NCBI RefSeq assembly: GCF_003347015.1
Contig: NZ_PNFB01000002.1
Span: 62,001 to 126,000, forward strand
DNA: 64,000 nucleotides
Reading direction: 5' to 3'
Source: Brachybacterium sp. YJGR34
Lineage (GTDB): Bacteria; Actinomycetota; Actinomycetes; Actinomycetales; Dermabacteraceae
How positions within the stretch are numbered: position 1 is the stretch's first letter; the number at the start of each line of letters is the position of its first letter. Below the pieces are notes generated by a model. It was given only the letters and a program-made list of their open reading frames with translations. It did not search any database and was not told the origin of the DNA. Below are positions 2,286 to 55,737 of this stretch, piece after piece. The translations under genes were made by a program, and so were the position numbers.

Positions 2286-4064
2286 GTGAAGGCGATCAGC
2301 GTCAAGAAGGCGGCGACGATGCTGTCGCTGTGGCCGGCGGCCGTGAACCTGCTGTCCGTGGTGGCGGTGCTGGTCGTGGCCGCGTCCGCGGGATCCCCGG
2401 CGGCGATCCTCGCGCCGCTGGTCCCGCTGGCGATCATCCTCTGGCGCCAGCGCCGCACCCTGCGCCGCCGGCCCAAGGGCGTGGGCGGCCTGGGCCGCTA
2501 CGCGACCAGCCGCTTCCTGCTCATCGCCGCCGCCGGCGCCCAGCTGCTCCTCTCCGGGAGCGCCGGAGCGCTCGGGATCATCGCCTGCGCGGCCGCGCTG
2601 GTGGTGCTCGTCGCGGAGCCGATCCTCCGCGCCACCAACGGTGTGGCCGTCCCCTACGCGGCGGGCTTCCCCGGTCACGAGGCCCGACGCCGCGCCCGCT
2701 TCCGCTACGGCTGGATCTTCCCGCTCGACGTGCTCGCGCTGACCGCGCTGCTGCTGGCGGTCCTCGCCCCGGTCCCGCTGCTGGTGGCGAGCCTGCTGCT
2801 CTCCCTGCTCGCGGCCGCTCTGGCGGTGGGCGCGGGGCTCGACATCATCGGGCGGATCCGCGCCCGACGCGCCTTCCAGGCCCGCCTCGAGGAGCACCTG
2901 ACCGCGCTCGGGCCCGTGTTCTACGTGTACTGGGACGCCCCGGCGCGCTCGGCCTTCCAGGTCTCCATGTGGCTGCCCTACCTCGAACGCCTCGGGGTGC
3001 CGTTCGTGCTGGTGGTGCGCTCGGTGGCCACCTTCCGCCAGCTCGCGGCCGTGACCGAGCAGCCACTGGTGCTGCGCCGGTCGCTCAGCGACCTGGACGC
3101 GCTCATGGTGCCCTCGGTCCGCGGCGTGTTCTACGTCAACAACTCGATGCGCAACAACCACATGGTGCGCTACTCGGCGCTGACCCACATCCAGCTGCTG
3201 CACGGCGAGTCGGACAAGGCCTCGAGCGCCACCCCGATCATCAAGATGTACGACCGCGACTTCGTCGCCGGCCAGGCCGCCATCGACCGCTTCGAGACCT
3301 TCGACGTGCCGATGCCCGCGGACATCTTCCGCATCGTCGGCCGCCCCCAGGTGGAGGACGTCGAGGGGGAGCGCGGCGCGATCGGCGCGCTCGAGGAGCC
3401 GAGCGTCCTGTACGCGCCCACCTGGCTGGGCTACCAGGAGGAGACCAACTACTCCTCGCTGCCGGCCGGGCCGTCGATCGTGCGGGCGCTGCTGGACCGC
3501 GGCTGCCGGGTGGTTTTCCGGCCCCACCCCTACAGCTCCCGGTCCCCGGAGCTGCGGGCGGCCTGCCGGGAGATCCGCGAGATGCTCGCGGACGATGCCG
3601 CCGCCACCGGTCGCGAGCACCTCTTCGGCGCGGTGGCTGAGAAGGAGATGAGCGTCGTGGACTGCTTCAACGCGGCCGACGCCATGATCTCCGACGTCTC
3701 CGCCGTGGTGGGGGACTTCCTGCACTCGGGCAAGCCGCTGGCGATGGTCTCCCCGCGCACCGGCGCCGAGGAGTTCGTCGCGACGTTCCCCATGGCCCGC
3801 GCCGCCTACGTGCTCGTCGCCGAGGACGGGGCGGTGACGAATCTCCAGGAGGGGCTGACTGCCCTGCTCGCCTCCGACCCGCGCCGCGAGGAGCGGCTGC
3901 GGTGGGCCACCTACTACCTCGGCGACATCCCGCGCGACGGGTACGCGGAGCGCTTCGTGCAGGTCGCGCGGCAGGAGCTGGGTCTGGATCCGGTCCCGAC
4001 GAGGGACCCCGCGGAGACCGGCCGGGAGGCCTCGCCGGAGGTCGCCCCGGAGCGCACGCCCTGA
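2286..4064 (+). CDS. CDP-glycerol/ribitol phosphotransferase-like protein with membrane N-terminus
   Basis: A 592-residue protein of the CDP-glycerol:poly(glycerophosphate) glycerophosphotransferase family (TagF/TarL-like), which transfers polyol phosphate from CDP-polyol to a growing teichoic acid. The first 200 residues are largely hydrophobic and carry several membrane segments. The catalytic region has HGESDK at 306-311, the position of the family's HGTPLK-type motif, FRPHPY near 410 and SDVSAV at 469-474 for binding the nucleotide. GTG at 2286 is chosen as start because the protein begins there with a basic segment; ATG at 2271 is in frame and possible. A shorter paralogue lies at 11815-13095. 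Substrate (glycerol or ribitol) cannot be read from sequence, but the cytidylyltransferase nearby favours ribitol. Confidence 0.82.
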   Translation: MKAISVKKAATMLSLWPAAVNLLSVVAVLVVAASAGSPAAILAPLVPLAIILWRQRRTLRRRPKGVGGLGRYATSRFLLIAAAGAQLLLSGSAGALGIIACAAALVVLVAEPILRATNGVAVPYAAGFPGHEARRRARFRYGWIFPLDVLALTALLLAVLAPVPLLVASLLLSLLAAALAVGAGLDIIGRIRARRAFQARLEEHLTALGPVFYVYWDAPARSAFQVSMWLPYLERLGVPFVLVVRSVATFRQLAAVTEQPLVLRRSLSDLDALMVPSVRGVFYVNNSMRNNHMVRYSALTHIQLLHGESDKASSATPIIKMYDRDFVAGQAAIDRFETFDVPMPADIFRIVGRPQVEDVEGERGAIGALEEPSVLYAPTWLGYQEETNYSSLPAGPSIVRALLDRGCRVVFRPHPYSSRSPELRAACREIREMLADDAAATGREHLFGAVAEKEMSVVDCFNAADAMISDVSAVVGDFLHSGKPLAMVSPRTGAEEFVATFPMARAAYVLVAEDGAVTNLQEGLTALLASDPRREERLRWATYYLGDIPRDGYAERFVQVARQELGLDPVPTRDPAETGREASPEVAPERTP

Positions 4065-4223: not shown

Positions 4224-6230
4224 ATGACACCCCAGGTCACCGTGATCGTTCCGGTCTACAACTCCGTGAACTACGTGCGTGAGTCGATCAACTCCGCCCG
4301 GGAGCAGACCATCGCGCCGGAGGAGGTCGAGATCCTCGCGGTCGACGACGGCTCCACCGACGGCAGCGACGCCGTGCTCGCCGAGCTCGCGGCGCAGGAC
4401 CCGCGGATCACGGTCCTGACCCAGGAGAACTCCGGCACCCCGGGCGGAGCCCGCAACCCGGCCATCGACCGGGCCACGGGGGAGTTCCTCTTCTTCCTCG
4501 ACTCCGACGACGTGCTCACCCCCGATGCGCTGCGCAGCATGGTCACCACCGCCCAGCAGGAGGGATCGGACGTGGTGCTGGGCAAGCTCGCCAGCATGGA
4601 CGGCCGCAAGGCGCCCTCGAGCATGTTCACCAGGACGGTGCTGGACGCCGACGTCGTGCGGGACAAGATCTTCAACACCCTGGGGCCCACCAAGCTGATC
4701 CGTCGGGAGCTCGTCGAGCGCCTCGGCGTGCGCTTCCCCACCGATCAGAAGGTGGGGGAGGACCAGCCGTTCATAGCCGCGGTCTATCTCAGCGCCCGGA
4801 AGATCTCGGTGCTCGCGGACAAGGACTACTACCTCATCCGCCACCGCGCCGAGGGCGACAACATGACCCTCTCCCCCCGCTCCGCGGCGGACTACGTCCG
4901 GACCGCCTCCCGCTGCGCGCTGGCCATCGAGACGTACACCGAGCCGGGGGAGAAGCGCGAGCTGCTCCTGCGCCGGCCCTTCGGCTGGTCCATGAAGTCC
5001 GCGCTCTCGCCGCGCTGGCGGAAGCTCGACCGCCCCGCGCAGGAGCGGGCCGCGCAGGAGTTCCGCGAGACGATCGGCCACCTGTACACGCCCACGCTCC
5101 GCGCTCTCCTCGCCGAGCAGACCCGGCTCCAGCTGGACCTGCTGAGGGCCGGGGACCTCGACGGCCTGGACGCCTACATCGCCTACGCCGCGCAGAACCC
5201 TGACCGGCGGATCGTCTGGAGCGGGGGAGCGTTCCGCCTGGGCCTGCCCCCGGAGCTCGCCGCCGGGATCCCCGAGGAGCTCCGCGAGGTCTCCGCGCCG
5301 CGGATGACCACGCGCCTGGAGGACCTCCGGATCGAGGGCGGGCAGCTGCAGGTCGGCGCGAGCGTCCGCATCCCGGAGCTCGACGGGACGCCGGAGGGGC
5401 TCGGCATCCGCGCCCGCCTGCGCAGCTCCGAGCTCGTGCAGGACCTCGAGGTGACCGCCGAGGACCTCACCGCCCCCGCCACCCTCACGGCGCGCACGGG
5501 AGACCTGCGCAAGGGCGTGTGGGACCTGTTCACGGTGGTGCGCTTCGGGGAGGTCGAGACGGAGCTGCGCCTGGGCGCCGACCGTGTGGGCACCCTCGCC
5601 CCGGACGGGGTCTCGAATCTCGCCGAGGACCCCGCCGCCGGCGACCGGCTCATCGCCTACTTCACGCAGGGTCCCGGGAACCTCTCGGTGGACCGCGGTG
5701 GGATGCTCAAGCGGCACCTCGTGGGGGCCGCCTGCCTGGGCCTGACCCTCGACGAGAACGGGCGCGCGCTGATGCTGGTGCAGACCACTCGGCCACCGGC
5801 GGCCGGGGACGAGTACTTCTGCCGGCTCACCGGTGCCGTGGAGCACGGCGGCCGGCAGCTGCTGCCGAGCCTGCGGCTCGGTGACCGCCTGCTGGGCCTC
5901 CGCCTGCCCGTGACCGCACAGATGATCGGCGCCACCGTGGAGGTGAGCTCGGTGCTGGGCGGCGTGCGCGCCCCGCTGCCCGCCGCGGGGTCCGAGCACT
6001 GGCCCGCCCGCGCCGCCGGCTTCGGCCTGGTGGCCGACGACGCCGGGGTGCTCACCGTGACCGCCCCCTCGGCACGCCCCGCGGAGCGCGAGGTCGACTG
6101 GTTCACGCCCACGCGGTCGCTGCGCACCCGGGTGGTGGGCAGCCGCACCGTGGCGGCGGTGCGCTCGGCCCCGCTGCTCGGCCCCGTGCTCGAGCGCGCC
6201 GTGCGCCGCCTGCGGAGGGACCGCTCGTGA
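4224..6230 (+). CDS. TarS-like teichoic acid glycosyltransferase (GT2)
   Basis: A 668-residue family 2 glycosyltransferase. The GT-A fold occupies about residues 1-230, with VTVIVPVYN at the start, the metal-binding DSDD at 93-96 and GEDQ at 178-181, where Asp180 corresponds to the catalytic base of TarS. GRKAPSSMF and LGPTKLIRRE also match the TarS/TarP pattern. A long helical and beta-rich C-terminal half follows, as in TarS, whose tail mediates trimerisation. TarS adds beta-GlcNAc to poly-ribitol-phosphate wall teichoic acid, so a decorating role on the same kind of polymer is inferred; the sugar is unknown. ATG at 4224 is used because the GT-A fold starts there. The stop overlaps the next start by four bases (GTGA). 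Confidence 0.85.
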   Translation: MTPQVTVIVPVYNSVNYVRESINSAREQTIAPEEVEILAVDDGSTDGSDAVLAELAAQDPRITVLTQENSGTPGGARNPAIDRATGEFLFFLDSDDVLTPDALRSMVTTAQQEGSDVVLGKLASMDGRKAPSSMFTRTVLDADVVRDKIFNTLGPTKLIRRELVERLGVRFPTDQKVGEDQPFIAAVYLSARKISVLADKDYYLIRHRAEGDNMTLSPRSAADYVRTASRCALAIETYTEPGEKRELLLRRPFGWSMKSALSPRWRKLDRPAQERAAQEFRETIGHLYTPTLRALLAEQTRLQLDLLRAGDLDGLDAYIAYAAQNPDRRIVWSGGAFRLGLPPELAAGIPEELREVSAPRMTTRLEDLRIEGGQLQVGASVRIPELDGTPEGLGIRARLRSSELVQDLEVTAEDLTAPATLTARTGDLRKGVWDLFTVVRFGEVETELRLGADRVGTLAPDGVSNLAEDPAAGDRLIAYFTQGPGNLSVDRGGMLKRHLVGAACLGLTLDENGRALMLVQTTRPPAAGDEYFCRLTGAVEHGGRQLLPSLRLGDRLLGLRLPVTAQMIGATVEVSSVLGGVRAPLPAAGSEHWPARAAGFGLVADDAGVLTVTAPSARPAEREVDWFTPTRSLRTRVVGSRTVAAVRSAPLLGPVLERAVRRLRRDRS

Positions 6231-51263: not shown

Positions 51264-52492
51264 GACGACCTCCGACCCGGTCCGCGGTCCCGGCGCGGCG
51301 CCCCGTCCCGCACGGCGGAGCGGTCCCGGTCGCGCAGCCGCGCGGCGAGCGCCGCGGCCCCGGGCCCCTCGAGCAGGCGCCCGCGGTCCGCGCGCAGCGC
51401 CGTCCGCGTGCGCAGAGCGCCGTCCGCATCCCGGTCCAGCAGCGCGATCTCCTCGAGGGCGCGGACGCCCTCGTGCCGCCCCAGGTGCACCACGACCTCG
51501 AGGGCGCTGGCCACCTGCGCCGCGAGCGCGCCGCGGTCCAGGCCGCCGAGCGCACCGAGCGCCTCGAGCCGGGCGGGGACATCGGCCGCGGTGTTCGCAT
51601 GGACGGTCCCGCAGCCGCCCTCGTGCCCGGTGTTCAGGGCCTGCAGCAGCTCCCGGATCTCACCGCCGCGGCACTCGCCCAGCACGATCCGGTCCGGCCG
51701 CATCCGCAGGCTCTGGCGCACCAGCGCGGTGAGGTCCACCTCGCCGGCGCCCTCGCTGTTGGCGTGCCGGGACTGCAGGTGGACCACGTGCGGGTGGTCG
51801 ACGGAGAGCTCGAGCACGTCCTCGACCACGACCAGCCGCTCGGCCGGCGCCGCCTCGCGCAGCATCGCCGCCAGCAGCGTCGACTTCCCGCTCCCCGTGC
51901 CGCCGGTGACGAGGAAGGGGACCCGGGCGCCGACGATCGCGGCGAGCACCCGACGGGAGTCCGGTCCGATCGCGCCCAGCTGCTCGAGGTCGTCGAGTCC
52001 CAGACGCCGGCGCGCGGGCAGACGCAGCGAGAGGATCGCCCCGCCCGGCGAGAGCGGAGGCAGCACGGCGTGCACGCGGATGCCCGAGGGAAGGTGGGCG
52101 TCGGCCCAGGGCACGGCGTCGTCCAGGCGCCGGCCTCCGGCGGTCGCGAGGCGGACGGCGAGATCGCGAGCCTGCGCCGGGGCGAGATGCAGCTCCGCGC
52201 GGTGCAGACCGTCGGCGTCGTCCACCCAGACGGCGCCGTCGTCGTTGACCAGCACGTCGGTCACCCCGGGGGCGACCAGCGGCTCGAGCGGCCCGAGTCC
52301 GTCGATGTGCTCGCGCAGCCGGGCGGTGAGCTCGAGCGTCGCCGAGGCCCCGAGCACCCGCCCCTGACCGCGCAGCACCCGCAGGACGCGCGGCACGTCC
52401 ACCGTGCCGGGCGAGCGGACCAGGTCCTCCCGCACCTGCTCCAGGAGGACGGGGAGGTCCGGCGTGCTCTCGGCCGCGGCCGGGGCGCTCAT
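51260..52492 (-). CDS. cpaF: Tad/Flp pilus assembly ATPase (CpaF/TadA)
   Basis: A 410-residue secretion ATPase of the VirB11/CpaF group. Walker A is GGTGSGKST with Lys203; RMRPDRIVLGECRGGE contains Walker B, and GHEGGCGTVHAN is the HIS box. It powers assembly and retraction of the pilus in this motor class. The ATG at 52492 overlaps the ssd stop by four bases. Confidence 0.93.
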   Translation of the reverse strand: MSAPAAAESTPDLPVLLEQVREDLVRSPGTVDVPRVLRVLRGQGRVLGASATLELTARLREHIDGLGPLEPLVAPGVTDVLVNDDGAVWVDDADGLHRAELHLAPAQARDLAVRLATAGGRRLDDAVPWADAHLPSGIRVHAVLPPLSPGGAILSLRLPARRRLGLDDLEQLGAIGPDSRRVLAAIVGARVPFLVTGGTGSGKSTLLAAMLREAAPAERLVVVEDVLELSVDHPHVVHLQSRHANSEGAGEVDLTALVRQSLRMRPDRIVLGECRGGEIRELLQALNTGHEGGCGTVHANTAADVPARLEALGALGGLDRGALAAQVASALEVVVHLGRHEGVRALEEIALLDRDADGALRTRTALRADRGRLLEGPGAAALAARLRDRDRSAVRDGAPRRDRGPGRRSS

Positions 52493-53658
52493 GACCCCGC
52501 CTCCTCGTGGAGCTGCGCGAGCAGCTCGCGTGCGGCTCGATCGGCGCCGCGGCGGCGCACGTCCAGCAGCGGCACCGCGCCCCGGGGACCGTCGCGGAAG
52601 GAGGCCGCGCACGGCAGCGCCAGGTCCTCGGCCACCTCGGCGGGGAGCAGCCCGCCGCGGCGCCGCACGGCGATGCGGGCGAGGCCCGCCGGCAGCTCCC
52701 ACGCCTCCAGCCGGCGCCCGGCCGCCCGCACCGCGTGATCGGTGGACGGGACCACGACCAGGAGCCGGTCGAGGTGCTCGAGAGCGGCGGGGACCAGGGA
52801 GGCGCCCAGATCCACCACCACGGTCCCGCCGCCGGGGCCCAGTGCCGCCAGCACGCGGGGCAGGTCCTGCGCATCGGGTGCACCGTGCTCACGGGCGACC
52901 AGGAGCGAGACCTCGTCGACCCGGGGCAGGGCGTCCCGCAGCGCCTCGCCGTCGTCGGGACCCAGCCGCGCCGTCTCCTCCCAGCCGATGCCGCGCGCGG
53001 CGGGGGCCTCGACGAGGAGATCGAGGCCCCCGCCGAGAGGATCGGCGTCCACGAGCACCACGGGACCGTGGCGGCGCCCGGCCGCCGCCAGGCGGGCGGC
53101 GAGGCTGGAGGCGCCGGCACCGCCGCAGCCGCCGGTCACGCCGAGCAGCAGCGAGGAGCCGCGCGGGCGGGCGAGGGCGGCGAGGCGGGAGAGCAGCTCC
53201 TCGGAGCCGCCGGGCAGGGGGAGGACAGCGAGCGCCCCGGCCTCGAGGGCGCACCGCCACAGGGCGGCCGGGACCACCTGCTCCGCGGTGACCACGAGCA
53301 GCGGCGAGCGCTCGGCGGCCGCCCGGGACGGGTCGGCGAGCAGCGCGTCGCCGTCCAGGACGGTGCACACGCTCGCCCCCGCCGCGGCGTCGACGCCGAG
53401 GTCGAGGCCGGCGGCCGTGGCATGGTCCCGCACCTGCTCCCGCAGGGGTCCGTCGGTCCCCGACCACCGCACCCGGGCGCGGACCGGGACCGGCGCCGCG
53501 GGCACGGCCCCGGACGGCGGGGCGGCGCCGGGGAAGGGAGAGCGACGGCGGCGCGGAGAGCTGCGGGGGTGCTCCTCGGGCTCGGTCGGGACCGAGGCGC
53601 CGGGCAGGCCGGGCACTGCCTCCACGGAGCGGCGGAGCGGAGCGGATGTGCTGGTCAT
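52489..53658 (-). CDS. ssd: Septum site-determining protein Ssd / CpaE-like
   Basis: A 389-residue protein related to MinD/CpaE. After a Pro/Arg-rich first 60 residues and a receiver-like domain, the ATPase-like core begins VTGGCGGAGASSLAARLA; the deviant P-loop lacks the signature lysine of MinD (KGGxGKT). VLVDADPLGGGLDLL is the switch region. In mycobacteria Ssd affects septum formation and stress responses, and its gene heads the tad operon; CpaE homologues localise pili. Here too it starts the operon (ATG at 53658) running away from the candidate RNA. Confidence 0.87.
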   Translation of the reverse strand: MTSTSAPLRRSVEAVPGLPGASVPTEPEEHPRSSPRRRRSPFPGAAPPSGAVPAAPVPVRARVRWSGTDGPLREQVRDHATAAGLDLGVDAAAGASVCTVLDGDALLADPSRAAAERSPLLVVTAEQVVPAALWRCALEAGALAVLPLPGGSEELLSRLAALARPRGSSLLLGVTGGCGGAGASSLAARLAAAGRRHGPVVLVDADPLGGGLDLLVEAPAARGIGWEETARLGPDDGEALRDALPRVDEVSLLVAREHGAPDAQDLPRVLAALGPGGGTVVVDLGASLVPAALEHLDRLLVVVPSTDHAVRAAGRRLEAWELPAGLARIAVRRRGGLLPAEVAEDLALPCAASFRDGPRGAVPLLDVRRRGADRAARELLAQLHEEAGS

Positions 53659-53757
53659 GCCGCCATCGTGGCCGGCCGACGGGGCCGCGCCCAGAGGCCC
53701 CCGAGCGCCTGTGGACGAGGGGACGGTGGGGAGGAACGGTCACCGGGTTCGCGGTGC

Positions 53758-53786
53758 TTGCGCCCCCGCTCTCAGGGGCGTAGTGT
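53758..53786 (+). promoter_or_regulatory. Promoter of the candidate 6S-like RNA
   Basis: TTGCGC at 53758-53763, a 17-base spacer and TAGTGT at 53781-53786. No start codon follows in leaderless position (the GTG overlaps the -10), and no open frame longer than about 23 codons begins after it. Confidence 0.65.
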
Positions 53787-53792
53787 GATCTG

Positions 53793-53957
53793 CACAACGA
53801 CGAATACCGGCATCGGAACCCACGTACGACTGGTCCCCGCAACGGACCGGCTGTGAGGCGTCGACAGCGCCACCGCAGCCAGTGAACGTGTACGCCTGAT
53901 CCCGATGCAGAGGGCTCGTCTGGAGCGGCGCCGCGACTGAACGCGACGCCGCTCCTT
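53793..53957 (+). ncRNA. Candidate 6S-like small RNA (Ms1/scr3559-type position)
   Basis: In the 351-base gap between ssd and the exonuclease gene, a promoter and a terminator delimit about 165 bases. Three stems pair outer to inner: GACGA (53799) with TCGTC (53916), GCATCGG (53810) with CCGATGC (53902), CGTAC (53823) with GTACG (53890), separated by unpaired bubbles; inside are hairpins GGTCC/GGACC and GGCTG/CAGCC enclosing GGCG/CGCC. A rod with internal loops next to ssd is where the RNA-polymerase-binding RNA Ms1 (Mycobacterium) and scr3559 (Streptomyces) lie, as I recall. Sequence homology was not tested, and it is shorter than Ms1. Confidence 0.6.
53922..53955 (+). terminator. Terminator of the candidate RNA, facing the exonuclease gene
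   Basis: GGAGCGGCG pairs with CGCCGCTCC, then after one mismatch CGCG pairs with CGCG around ACTGAA. Followed by TT. It lies 54 bases before the convergent exonuclease stop and may serve both. Confidence 0.7.
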
Positions 53958-54009
53958 CATGTCTGCCCCCGAGCGGCCGGCGTGCCGCACGCCGGGCTGC
54001 GTGGCGACC

Positions 54010-54810
54010 TCAGAGGTCGAGGTCCACCACCACCGGCGCATGGTCCGAGGCGCCCTTGCCCTTGCGCTCCTCGCGGTCGATGAAGGATCCCGTCACCGCG
54101 GACTGCACGGCGGGGGAGCCGAGCACGAAGTCGATGCGCATGCCCTCCTTCTTCGGGAAGCGCAGCGCCTGGTAGTCCCAGTAGGTGTAGACCCCGGGCC
54201 CGGGATGCTCGGGGCGCACCACGTCCGCATAGCCGGCGTCCACCACGGCGCGGAAGGCCGCGCGCTCCGGCTCGGTGACATGGGTCTTCCCCTCGAAGGC
54301 CGCCACGTCCCAGACGTCCTCGTCGAGCGGGGCGACGTTGAAGTCGCCCACGAGCATCGTGCGGGAGCCCGCGTCCTCGGCGAGCGCACGCGCGCCCTCG
54401 GCGCGCAGCGCCTCGAGCCAGCGCAGCTTGTAGGCGTAGTGGGGATGATCCAGCTCGCGCCCGTTGGGGATGTACAGCGACCAGATCCGCAGGCCCTCGC
54501 CGACCACGCCGCCGAGGGCGCGCGCCTCGACCACGCCGGTCCCGTCCTCCGGCCAGGCGGGCACCGCCGGCAGCTCGGTGCGCACGTCCTCGAGCCCCAC
54601 CCGCGAGATCAGCGCCACGCCGTTCCACTGGTTCAGCCCGTGCGCGGCCACCTCGTACCCGGCCTCCTGCAGCGCCGTGAGGTCCAGCTGGTCGGGTCGG
54701 GCCTTCGTCTCCTGCAGGGCGAGCACGTCGACCTCGTGACGCTCGAGGAAGGCGAGGACCCGATCCATCCGGGCCCGCAGGGAATTGATGTTCCAGGTCG
54801 CGATGCGCAT
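54010..54810 (-). CDS. xth: Exodeoxyribonuclease III
   Basis: A 266-residue AP endonuclease/3'-5' exonuclease of the ExoIII family. Conserved residues are Asn7 in TWNINS, Glu34 in LQETKA, GDFN in MLVGDFNVAP, and Asp256-His257 in SDHAPV. It removes abasic sites and 3' blocking groups from DNA. ATG at 54810 has TAGGAT seven bases upstream and no clear ribosome-binding site, consistent with a leaderless message. Confidence 0.92.
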   Translation of the reverse strand: MRIATWNINSLRARMDRVLAFLERHEVDVLALQETKARPDQLDLTALQEAGYEVAAHGLNQWNGVALISRVGLEDVRTELPAVPAWPEDGTGVVEARALGGVVGEGLRIWSLYIPNGRELDHPHYAYKLRWLEALRAEGARALAEDAGSRTMLVGDFNVAPLDEDVWDVAAFEGKTHVTEPERAAFRAVVDAGYADVVRPEHPGPGVYTYWDYQALRFPKKEGMRIDFVLGSPAVQSAVTGSFIDREERKGKGASDHAPVVVDLDL

Positions 54811-54817
54811 GTTCCCG

Positions 54818-54823
54818 ATCCTA
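54818..54823 (-). promoter_or_regulatory. -10 element of xth (leaderless geometry)
   Basis: On the minus strand TAGGAT is followed by seven bases and the ATG at 54810. Confidence 0.5.
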
Positions 54824-54873
54824 CGGGGACGCGCCGACGCGCGCCCAGGGCGGGAGCGCGGTCCGGACAGTCG

Positions 54874-54879
54874 TAAACT
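54874..54879 (+). promoter_or_regulatory. -10 element giving a leaderless mRNA for the SDR at 54886
   Basis: TAAACT ends six bases before the ATG at 54886. It is one of the best consensus matches in the window. Confidence 0.6.
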
Positions 54880-54885
54880 CGGTCC

Positions 54886-55737
54886 ATGACGCGTGCACTC
54901 GTCACCGGATCCACCTCCGGCCTGGGCCTCGAGTTCGCCTGGCAGCTGGCCGGGACCGGGCACGATCTCGTGCTGGTCTCGCGCGACGAGGACCGGCTGC
55001 AGGCGGTCGCCGAGCAGATCCGGGACGTCCACTCCGTCACGGTCGAGATCCTGCCCGCGGACCTCTCCGACCGCGAGCAGCTCGAGCGGGTCGCGATCCG
55101 CCTCACCGATCCCGTGGACCGGGTGAGCTTCCTGGTCAACAACGCCGGCTACGGGCTGCGCGGCGGCTTCCTCGACGTGGGCATCGCGGACCACGAGAAG
55201 CAGATGGACACCCTCATGCGCGCGGTGCTGGTGCTCTCCCACGCCGCAGCGCGCACCATGGTGCAGCGCCGCCGGGGCGCGATCCTCAACGTCAGCTCGC
55301 TCGCGGGCTACACCACCGCGGGGCCCTACTCCGCGTCCAAGAGCTGGGTCACGGTCTTCACCGAGTCGCTCGCGATGGAGCTCAAGGGCACCGGGGTCAC
55401 CGCCACGGCGCTCCTGCCCGGCTTCGTGCAGACCGAGTTCCACGAGCGGGCCGCCATGAGCATGGACGGCCTGCCCCGGATCACCTGGCTCAAGGCGCCG
55501 TACGTCGTGGAGCAGGCGCTCAAGGACACGGCCCGGGGCGCCGTGCTGTCCATCCCCTCCGTGAAGTACCGCACCGCCGGGGAGTTCTCCCGCATCGCCC
55601 CCCGGCCGCTGGTGCGCGCCATGACCTCTCCGAACTGGTACCACCGGATGCAGGTGAGGTCGGTGCAGCGCTCCCGTCGGAAGGCCTCCCGCCGCACCCT
55701 CAACGCCCCCTGGCAGGGGGAGGAGGACGAGGGCTGA
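54886..55737 (+). CDS. SDR oxidoreductase
   Basis: A 283-residue short-chain dehydrogenase with TGSTSGLG at 7-14, NNAG at 85-88, Ser near 138 and the catalytic Tyr148 and Lys152 in YSASK. It belongs to the DltE-like or YqjQ-like group of extended C-terminal SDRs, with a basic tail of about 40 residues (RSVQRSRRKASRR). Substrate unknown. It is transcribed from its own promoter and ends 60 bases before the pyrE gene. Confidence 0.87.
   Translation: MTRALVTGSTSGLGLEFAWQLAGTGHDLVLVSRDEDRLQAVAEQIRDVHSVTVEILPADLSDREQLERVAIRLTDPVDRVSFLVNNAGYGLRGGFLDVGIADHEKQMDTLMRAVLVLSHAAARTMVQRRRGAILNVSSLAGYTTAGPYSASKSWVTVFTESLAMELKGTGVTATALLPGFVQTEFHERAAMSMDGLPRITWLKAPYVVEQALKDTARGAVLSIPSVKYRTAGEFSRIAPRPLVRAMTSPNWYHRMQVRSVQRSRRKASRRTLNAPWQGEEDEG

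Follow-up and report, generated by a model that had tools for sequence, protein, structure and literature searches.

A conserved, predicted RNA gene between ssd and xthA

The window, a 64,000-nucleotide stretch of the Brachybacterium sp. YJGR34 genome, carries ssd and xthA as neighbouring genes on the minus strand, with a TadA-family ATPase gene following ssd. The entire gap between ssd and xthA spans positions 53659–54009; mechanical open reading frames run across it in the ORF listing, and a conserved RNA block on the plus strand occupies only 53793 to approximately 53963.

52489–53658, minus strand: ssd (CpaE-like, septum site-determining protein Ssd), divergent neighbour; TIGR03815, E 3e-41
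53758–53763, plus strand: −35 element TTGCGC; TTG in 28/28 and TTGC in 26/28 aligned loci
53781–53786, plus strand: −10 element TAGTGT; TAGTGT in 24/28 loci, spacer from −35 of 17 bases
53793–53963, plus strand: predicted Ms1-type RNA gene; R1 match of 198.6 bits (R1 trained with the window sequence), conservation profile and invariant columns
54010–54810, minus strand: xthA (exodeoxyribonuclease III), convergent neighbour; TIGR00633, E 6.5e-71

Here R1 is a covariance model whose training included the window sequence. The window Ssd protein scores 141.7 bits, below the TIGR03815 cut-off of 154.45, and automatic annotation may miss it for that reason. Because xthA converges on the RNA and the next plus-strand gene with a family match past xthA is an SDR gene at 54886, a leader role for downstream genes is unlikely.

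Positions 53740–53990, used as a query, matched 28 of 58 genomes (own included), all of them Brachybacterium. Mean identity to the window, taken in 10-base steps, starts at 0.34 ahead of the promoter, is 0.63–0.64 over the −35 block and 0.41 in the spacer, reaches 0.91–0.98 over 53780–53879, falls to 0.43 in a variable loop (53880–53889), returns to 0.70–0.93 over 53890–53959, and ends with 0.54 at 53960 and 0.37–0.39 beyond. The A at 53794 is invariant in all 28 aligned Brachybacterium loci. From the promoter and the terminator, the RNA would start approximately 7 bases 3′ of the −10 element and end at or just past the terminator (approximately 53958–53963), giving a predicted length of 166–171 bases (hereafter ~165).

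The promoter TTGCGC-N17-TAGTGT had been proposed in the initial annotation, and the proposal holds up: both elements are in place, and the spacer is 17 bases in 28/28 aligned Brachybacterium loci. The −35 element follows TTGCRY in 25 of these (TTGCGC in 13, TTGCAC in 6, TTGCGT in 5 and TTGCAT in 1), the remaining forms being TTGCTA, TTGTGC and TTGTCG in one locus each, and the −10 element reads TAGTGT in 24, TATGGT in 2, and TAATGT and TACTGT in 1 each. A generic sigma-70 scan of 53000–55000 under strict rules called no promoter, because TTGCGC/TAGTGT is too far from TTGACA/TATAAT. Outside Dermabacteraceae, TTGCG/TAGTGT was not seen before the model start in six loci (L065, L067, L068, L072, L118 and L125), in which GTACAAAGG- or GTAGACATGGAG-like strings recur between a few and some two dozen bases ahead of that start; the promoter or the start site may thus vary by lineage.

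Secondary structure and covariation

RNAalifold on a MAFFT alignment of 28 distinct Brachybacterium sequences reproduces the arrangement of the window RNA, with stems P1–P3 nested, hairpins P4 and P5, and the terminator.

53799–53803, plus strand: 5′ side of P1, paired in the window fold with 53916–53920 (plus strand), the 3′ side of P1
53810–53816, plus strand: 5′ side of P2, GCAUCGG, paired in the window fold with 53902–53908 (plus strand), the 3′ side CCGAUGC
53817–53822, plus strand: 5′ strand of the internal loop, AACCCA, invariant in 28/28; candidate RNA polymerase contact
53823–53827, plus strand: 5′ side of P3, CGUAC, paired with 53890–53894 (plus strand), the 3′ side GUACG
53832–53848, plus strand: hairpin P4, GGUCC-CCGCAAC-GGACC; 100% of cells paired, 4/5 pairs never vary
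53849–53880, plus strand: two-part hairpin P5; 5/12 pairs with double-sided changes
53895–53901, plus strand: 3′ strand of the internal loop, CCUGAUC; 6/7 letters invariant in 28, the last being C or A
53922–53955, plus strand: terminator hairpin of 9 + 4 pairs with tail CUUCAU; −27.3 kcal/mol, z −6.36

In this alignment, 97.8% of pair cells are standard and 16 of the 45 pairs change on both sides, a count that none of 500 shuffles reach. Slid-structure controls drop to 23–54% paired, in a comparison that favours the tested structure, as it was derived from the same alignment. The comparative fold agrees with the three nested stems and two inner hairpins that had been drawn from the single sequence, and the covariance of the stems across related genomes, put forward at the same time as a check, is borne out by double-sided changes in P1, P2 and P3. 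Double-sided changes fall on 2/5 pairs of P1, 2/6 alignment-structure pairs of P2 and 6/13 pairs of the terminator hairpin, and one P3 pair is G–C in 15 and A–U in 13 of the 28 loci; since four of the five P4 pairs never vary, covariation says little on P4 within the genus. The order-wide alignment A3 (25 sequences), which is fitted to a covariance model and hence leans towards the modelled structure, has 92.7% of cells paired and double-sided changes in 38 of 45 pairs, including 5/5 in P1 and 5/6 in P2. Counting wobble pairs in the 28 Brachybacterium sequences, 74 of 1254 pair cells are G–U as against 5 that are A–C, an excess that favours the plus strand.

The minimum free energy of 53790–53960 is −79.6 kcal/mol (z −4.15), and the RNA body without the terminator has a z of −2.39, with 4 of 200 shuffles folding as well. 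A large share of the raw folding signal thus comes from the terminator, and the evidence for the body is comparative. The body forms a long hairpin with an internal loop, the flanks of which are among the most conserved parts of the RNA.

The earlier description of a strong terminator stands for the 13-pair hairpin, which is conserved, and falls short for what follows it: the sequence after the hairpin is CUUCAUGU, with a weak T-run. A terminator scan of 53000–55000 that demands a T-run found no terminator, because the hairpin lacks one. The hairpin also faces the convergent xthA, with a weak minus-strand model match, and may end transcription in both directions.

Relation to Ms1

Two further covariance models were used, with E-values that are rough for all such models (short calibration): R2, from 25 members of the window's own order with no Ms1 sequence in training, and R3, from 53 sequences including Ms1-locus sequences of other orders. 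Among 20 regions around ssd, of which 18 belong to other orders, the Rfam Ms1 model RF02566 finds Ms1 in two, L112 and L113, both mycobacteria-like. In L112, R2 matches 3481–3717 on the minus strand (33.7 bits, E 9.1e-5 in 128 kb) where the Rfam model matches 3480–3780 on the minus strand (229.4 bits), and it matches the Ms1 of L113 with 30.8 bits (E 3.3e-4 in 128 kb); in both regions the two models agree on the strand and their 3′ ends differ by at most one base. At E < 0.01, R2 matches 14 of the 20 regions.

The letters common to the window RNA and Ms1 in the model alignment are ACCCACGCG ... UGCACGC.UGGUAACCG, with ACGCNUGNUM common to both on the 3′ side of the loop, and ACCCACG is also found in mycobacterial Ms1 and in Streptomyces-like loci. 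The two-part core motif sits inside the Rfam Ms1 match in both L112 and L113 and occurs in 14 of the 20 ssd regions, a count offered as illustration only, with no chance rate computed.

Over 20 whole genomes besides its own, R2 has a match at E ≤ 1 in 12, and the best match lies in the ssd region in 10 of these. The Ms1 match is the sole one in G338 (E 0.43) and comes second in G353 (E 0.19), behind a match elsewhere (E 0.086), and the sole match in G312 lies away from the ssd region. Of three Streptomyces-like genomes, two have no R2 match and one is matched only elsewhere. R3, which was trained on the two Rfam-defined Ms1 genes, reaches them in whole genomes with E-values of 1.2e-5 and 4.1e-4.

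RF02566 has no match in the window genome, misses both Streptomyces-like genomes tested, and exceeds its curated cut-off, a detection threshold rather than a biological criterion, in 2 of 15 genomes, both mycobacteria-like. Rfam at gathering score returns only a tRNA from the whole 64-kb window, and a permissive scan of 53500–54200 gives only chance-level matches (best E 0.39). The Rfam model is reported to detect only near relatives of mycobacteria, and Ms1, which is weakly conserved, was mapped via the names of neighbouring genes (PMC9130861).

Ms1 (RF02566; described in M. smegmatis, and as MTS2823 in M. tuberculosis) has the same orientation relative to ssd as the window RNA, and shares with it the core ACCCACG ... 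CGCNUGNUA around the internal loop and a terminator hairpin; a conserved promoter has been reported for it (PMC4191392). Ms1 is approximately 300 bases long and the R2 match spans 237 bases there, as opposed to 171 in the window. For scr3559, the Ms1 of S. coelicolor, the HAD-neighbour setting and the same core are found in Streptomyces-like genomes; it measures approximately 230 bases by Northern blot (PMC9130861), and the inner region around its core differs. The window RNA, put at ~165 bases and shorter than Ms1 in the initial annotation, has a predicted length of 166–171 against 230–300 published, a difference of approximately 60–135 bases. The kinship with Ms1 and scr3559 proposed in the initial annotation was based on position; it is supported by the R2 matches on Rfam-defined Ms1, the location near ssd and the covariation, and so now rests on sequence, structure, location and covariation.

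Gene order around the RNA

In L112 and L113 the order is ssd, 6C RNA, HAD hydrolase, Ms1, with the flanking genes identified in L112 (Ssd, TIGR03815, 355 bits; HAD-IB hydrolase, TIGR01490, 243.5 bits). The 6C RNA (RF01066) lies at 4918–4993 in L112, where it and Ms1 stand on either side of the HAD gene, and at 5170–5245 in L113; of 20 ssd loci from other orders, 14 (these two included) have it upstream of ssd, in the same orientation as that gene. The Streptomyces-like L115 similarly has a HAD gene and then the R2 match. The claim that Ms1 occupies the equivalent place is therefore right as to the ssd neighbourhood and the orientation, but not as to adjacency: mycobacterial Ms1 lies beyond a HAD hydrolase gene, which is not the case in the window, and it is the 6C RNA that adjoins ssd.

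A degenerate core pattern found 57 stretches, in genera that include Brachybacterium, Dermabacter, Helcobacillus, Cellulomonas, Actinotalea, Oerskovia, Sanguibacter, Ruania, Pseudactinotalea, Jonesia and Cellulosimicrobium, and R2 matches all 57, with full model coverage in 56 and truncation at a contig end in the other. In 27 of them a HAD-IB hydrolase match on the same strand precedes the RNA by 58–328 bases: 9/9 stretches in Cellulomonas, 5/5 in Oerskovia, 3/4 in Actinotalea, 2/3 in Sanguibacter, the single ones in Cellulosimicrobium and Jonesia, and others. This placement downstream of a HAD gene is the published Ms1 setting, Cellulomonas, Oerskovia, Actinotalea and Sanguibacter appear in Table 4 of the same study, and CpaE is among its updated synteny phrases (PMC9130861). 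Cellulomonas, Oerskovia, Actinotalea, Cellulosimicrobium, Ruania and Sanguibacter all have species with the window's exact core pattern and R2 matches, and, from genus and gene order, we infer that the RNAs in these six genera are the Ms1 candidates of Table 4 (PMC9130861). Most of these six have a HAD gene ahead of the RNA; no HAD match was found for Ruania or, outside the six, for Dermabacteraceae.

No HAD match was found near the RNA in the stretches of Ruania (two), Pseudactinotalea, Brachybacterium, Dermabacter and Helcobacillus. In the window genome, the window belongs to contig C22, and TIGR01490 is matched on three others (C39, C42 and C33). With ssd and tadA kept in the Ms1 orientation and HAD elsewhere, the window corresponds to the Ms1 neighbourhood minus the HAD gene, and the HAD-keeping relatives link the two arrangements.

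Upstream and divergent ssd accompanies the RNA in 36 of the 57 stretches. Thirteen lack an ssd match despite at least 1500 bases upstream, seven of them with TadA upstream and divergent, and eight have less than 1500 bases of upstream DNA. Three full-length R2 matches (L143 93–256, L154 7288–7447 and L188 6283–6446) have no Ssd, TadA, HAD or XthA match though at least 1500 bases lie upstream; the RNA may have been relocated there, or its neighbours may be too divergent for the queries.

R3 bears on location independently of any positional input to the search. Its training included Ms1-locus sequences, so that only untrained genomes count: 94 class matches less 13 genomes (own and 12 used in training) leave 81, of which 28 have no listed ssd position and 53 are checkable. 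Of these 53 matches, 45 are found 410–6241 bases upstream of ssd, in the orientation that leads away from the gene. Another 3 share the strand of ssd and lie within 10 kb, 5 fall on a different contig of the assembly, and no match is far off on the contig that carries ssd. These counts are to be read with the non-order training sequences having come from ssd regions, and with many of the tested genomes sharing a genus with a trained one.

We therefore consider it probable, at approximately 0.83, that the feature in the gap is the Ms1 gene of this Brachybacterium, its own transcription unit divergent from ssd, and that its product is, by homology, a core-polymerase RNA. The kind of RNA is known, and the Brachybacterium member appears undescribed: neither Dermabacteraceae nor Brachybacterium occurs in Table 4 or the main text of PMC9130861, and among the matches listed from the open-licence literature nothing joins Ms1 or 6S RNA with either name.

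Predicted mode of action and alternatives

By homology to Ms1, the separate unit divergent from ssd would give a stable RNA of ~165 bases that binds the RNA polymerase core, holding a pool of polymerase to be released once growth resumes. Closing the structure and making it rigid is the probable role of the outer stem P1 and of the inner hairpins P4 and P5, and the last hairpin would stop transcription. The internal loop AACCCA/CCUGAUC with its flanks is the natural candidate for the polymerase-core site; deleting the internal bubble from the M. smegmatis RNA reduced binding (PMC4191392), and the S. coelicolor Ms1 RNA associates with core without HrdB (PMC9130861). Polymerase binding, stationary-phase induction and the transcript ends are all predicted by this homology.

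A bolder proposal, for and against which we see about even odds, is that the short RNA is the minimal working Ms1, in which one near-invariant loop (with ACCCACG and CGCYUGNUA as its two sides) grips the core and has been kept over the class, the 300-base mycobacterial form being an expanded outlier, and that a model built outward from it finds single-copy Ms1 class-wide where Rfam fails.

The RNA could instead be an Ms1 homolog by descent with a 6S-like action, binding sigma-bound polymerase with a loop that mimics an open promoter, which we consider improbable. Its length of ~165 is within the 6S range of 150–210 quoted in PMC4191392, it has a long hairpin with an internal loop, and CoRP in Corynebacterium binds both polymerase forms (PMC11077062). 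Against this, its conserved letters are those of Ms1, a core binder in two genera, and its internal loop is small, at 6 and 7 bases. Typical 6S RNAs have a large central loop, above these 6 + 7 bases in size, and their conserved letters differ from those of the window RNA. RF00013 has no match in the window genome at E ≤ 10, a search in which it exceeded its cut-off in 4 of 14 control genomes, and identity with 6S RNA is rejected. The earlier label '6S-like' thus fits the overall shape, a long hairpin with internal loop and a similar length, and not the sequence family.

A trans-acting regulator that pairs with mRNAs and merely retains an Ms1-like fold is less probable still: the variable unpaired stretch 53881–53889 and the single-stranded loops would suit it, but the conserved unpaired letters are common to RNAs of other orders in the class, unlike typical target-pairing seeds. 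That the block is a cis-regulatory 5′ leader of ssd on the minus strand is very unlikely. Such an arrangement has a precedent in the 6C RNA, which Rfam types as cis-regulatory and which, in other orders, is found upstream of ssd in that gene's own orientation, opposite to the strand of the window RNA; 6C identity is nevertheless rejected, with no RF01066 match in the window at gathering score or on either strand of 53500–54200 at E ≤ 10. The minus-strand leader is rejected on the wobble counts, as the 74 G–U cells would there be C–A as against just 5 A–C cells, and on the plus-strand −35/−10 pair, conserved with fixed spacing; matches in other genera can also be 1–6 kb away from ssd, many beyond a HAD gene. 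Equally unlikely is a terminator-only stretch for xthA without an RNA product, for although the hairpin can form on the minus strand facing xthA (with the weak minus-strand match), conservation spans the promoter and 130 bases ahead of the hairpin, and xthA–ssd pairs exist without the conserved block.

As an Ms1, the Brachybacterium RNA would fill the place of the abundant polymerase-bound RNA, of which one per species has been proposed, with Micrococcus luteus named as an open case (PMC11077062); the lack of a 6S RNA match in the window genome is in line with this view. CoRP would have the same role, as an abundant polymerase-bound RNA in an actinobacterium, at approximately 500 bases and with close homologs found only in Corynebacterium (PMC11077062). 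The window RNA would give Dermabacteraceae such an RNA, and offers a small member for structure work and a short list of invariant bases to mutate.

Distribution and absence

Within the family, R1 matches 37 of 47 genomes at E ≤ 0.01, comprising 31 of 38 Brachybacterium (own included) and 6 of 9 in other genera, and in the order it matches 36 of 248 genomes at E ≤ 0.1, the weakest of them doubtful. At E ≤ 0.05, R3 matches 120 of the 396 order genomes and 94 of the 197 class genomes, always once per genome. Only 7 or 14 candidates were scored in each, so that a single match is limited evidence against a second copy, and the lack of a match does not prove that the RNA is absent. A model begun from the Brachybacterium RNA reaches Rfam-defined mycobacterial Ms1 and, in its widened form, gives single matches over many families. 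The compact member suggested for this genus has a predicted length of ~165 bases and is not confined to Brachybacterium, as related RNAs of similar model length are present elsewhere in the order, in further genera and families; an RNA restricted to the genus is rejected by the R1, R3 and core-pattern matches there. One locus, L161 (JAKBFW010000060.1, a MAG), is probably mislabelled: its record is titled Proteobacteria bacterium, and its RNA, HAD, ssd and tadA are arranged in the actinobacterial order.

Seven Brachybacterium genomes have no R1 match. In one of these, G005, the contig ends near ssd. The other six (G016, G025, G029, G031, G034 and G035; loci L194, L196, L195, L198, L190 and L199, respectively) are 99–100% complete and still have xthA and ssd as neighbours. 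As a check for failed detection, 11 ssd loci were searched with R2 unfiltered; L189 was matched (E 5.9e-10), and nothing else fell below E 0.077. Extrapolated from the Ssd match, the xthA–ssd gap is 76–186 bases in the six species without the RNA and 319–706 bases in the 25 measurable Brachybacterium loci with it. Measured to the longest possible ssd ORF, the gap is 90–401 versus 87–507 bases, ranges that overlap because this measure extends ORFs into the gap. Short gaps have been reported for groups without Ms1 (PMC9130861), which the Brachybacterium absences resemble; Corynebacterium, Bifidobacterium, Actinomyces and Brevibacterium are given in that study as lineages without Ms1. In a tree of xthA, many forks of which are weak, the six genomes without the RNA cluster, with one or two losses needed. 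These Brachybacterium genomes, in which the xthA–ssd pair lies closer together, make a natural absence of the RNA available.
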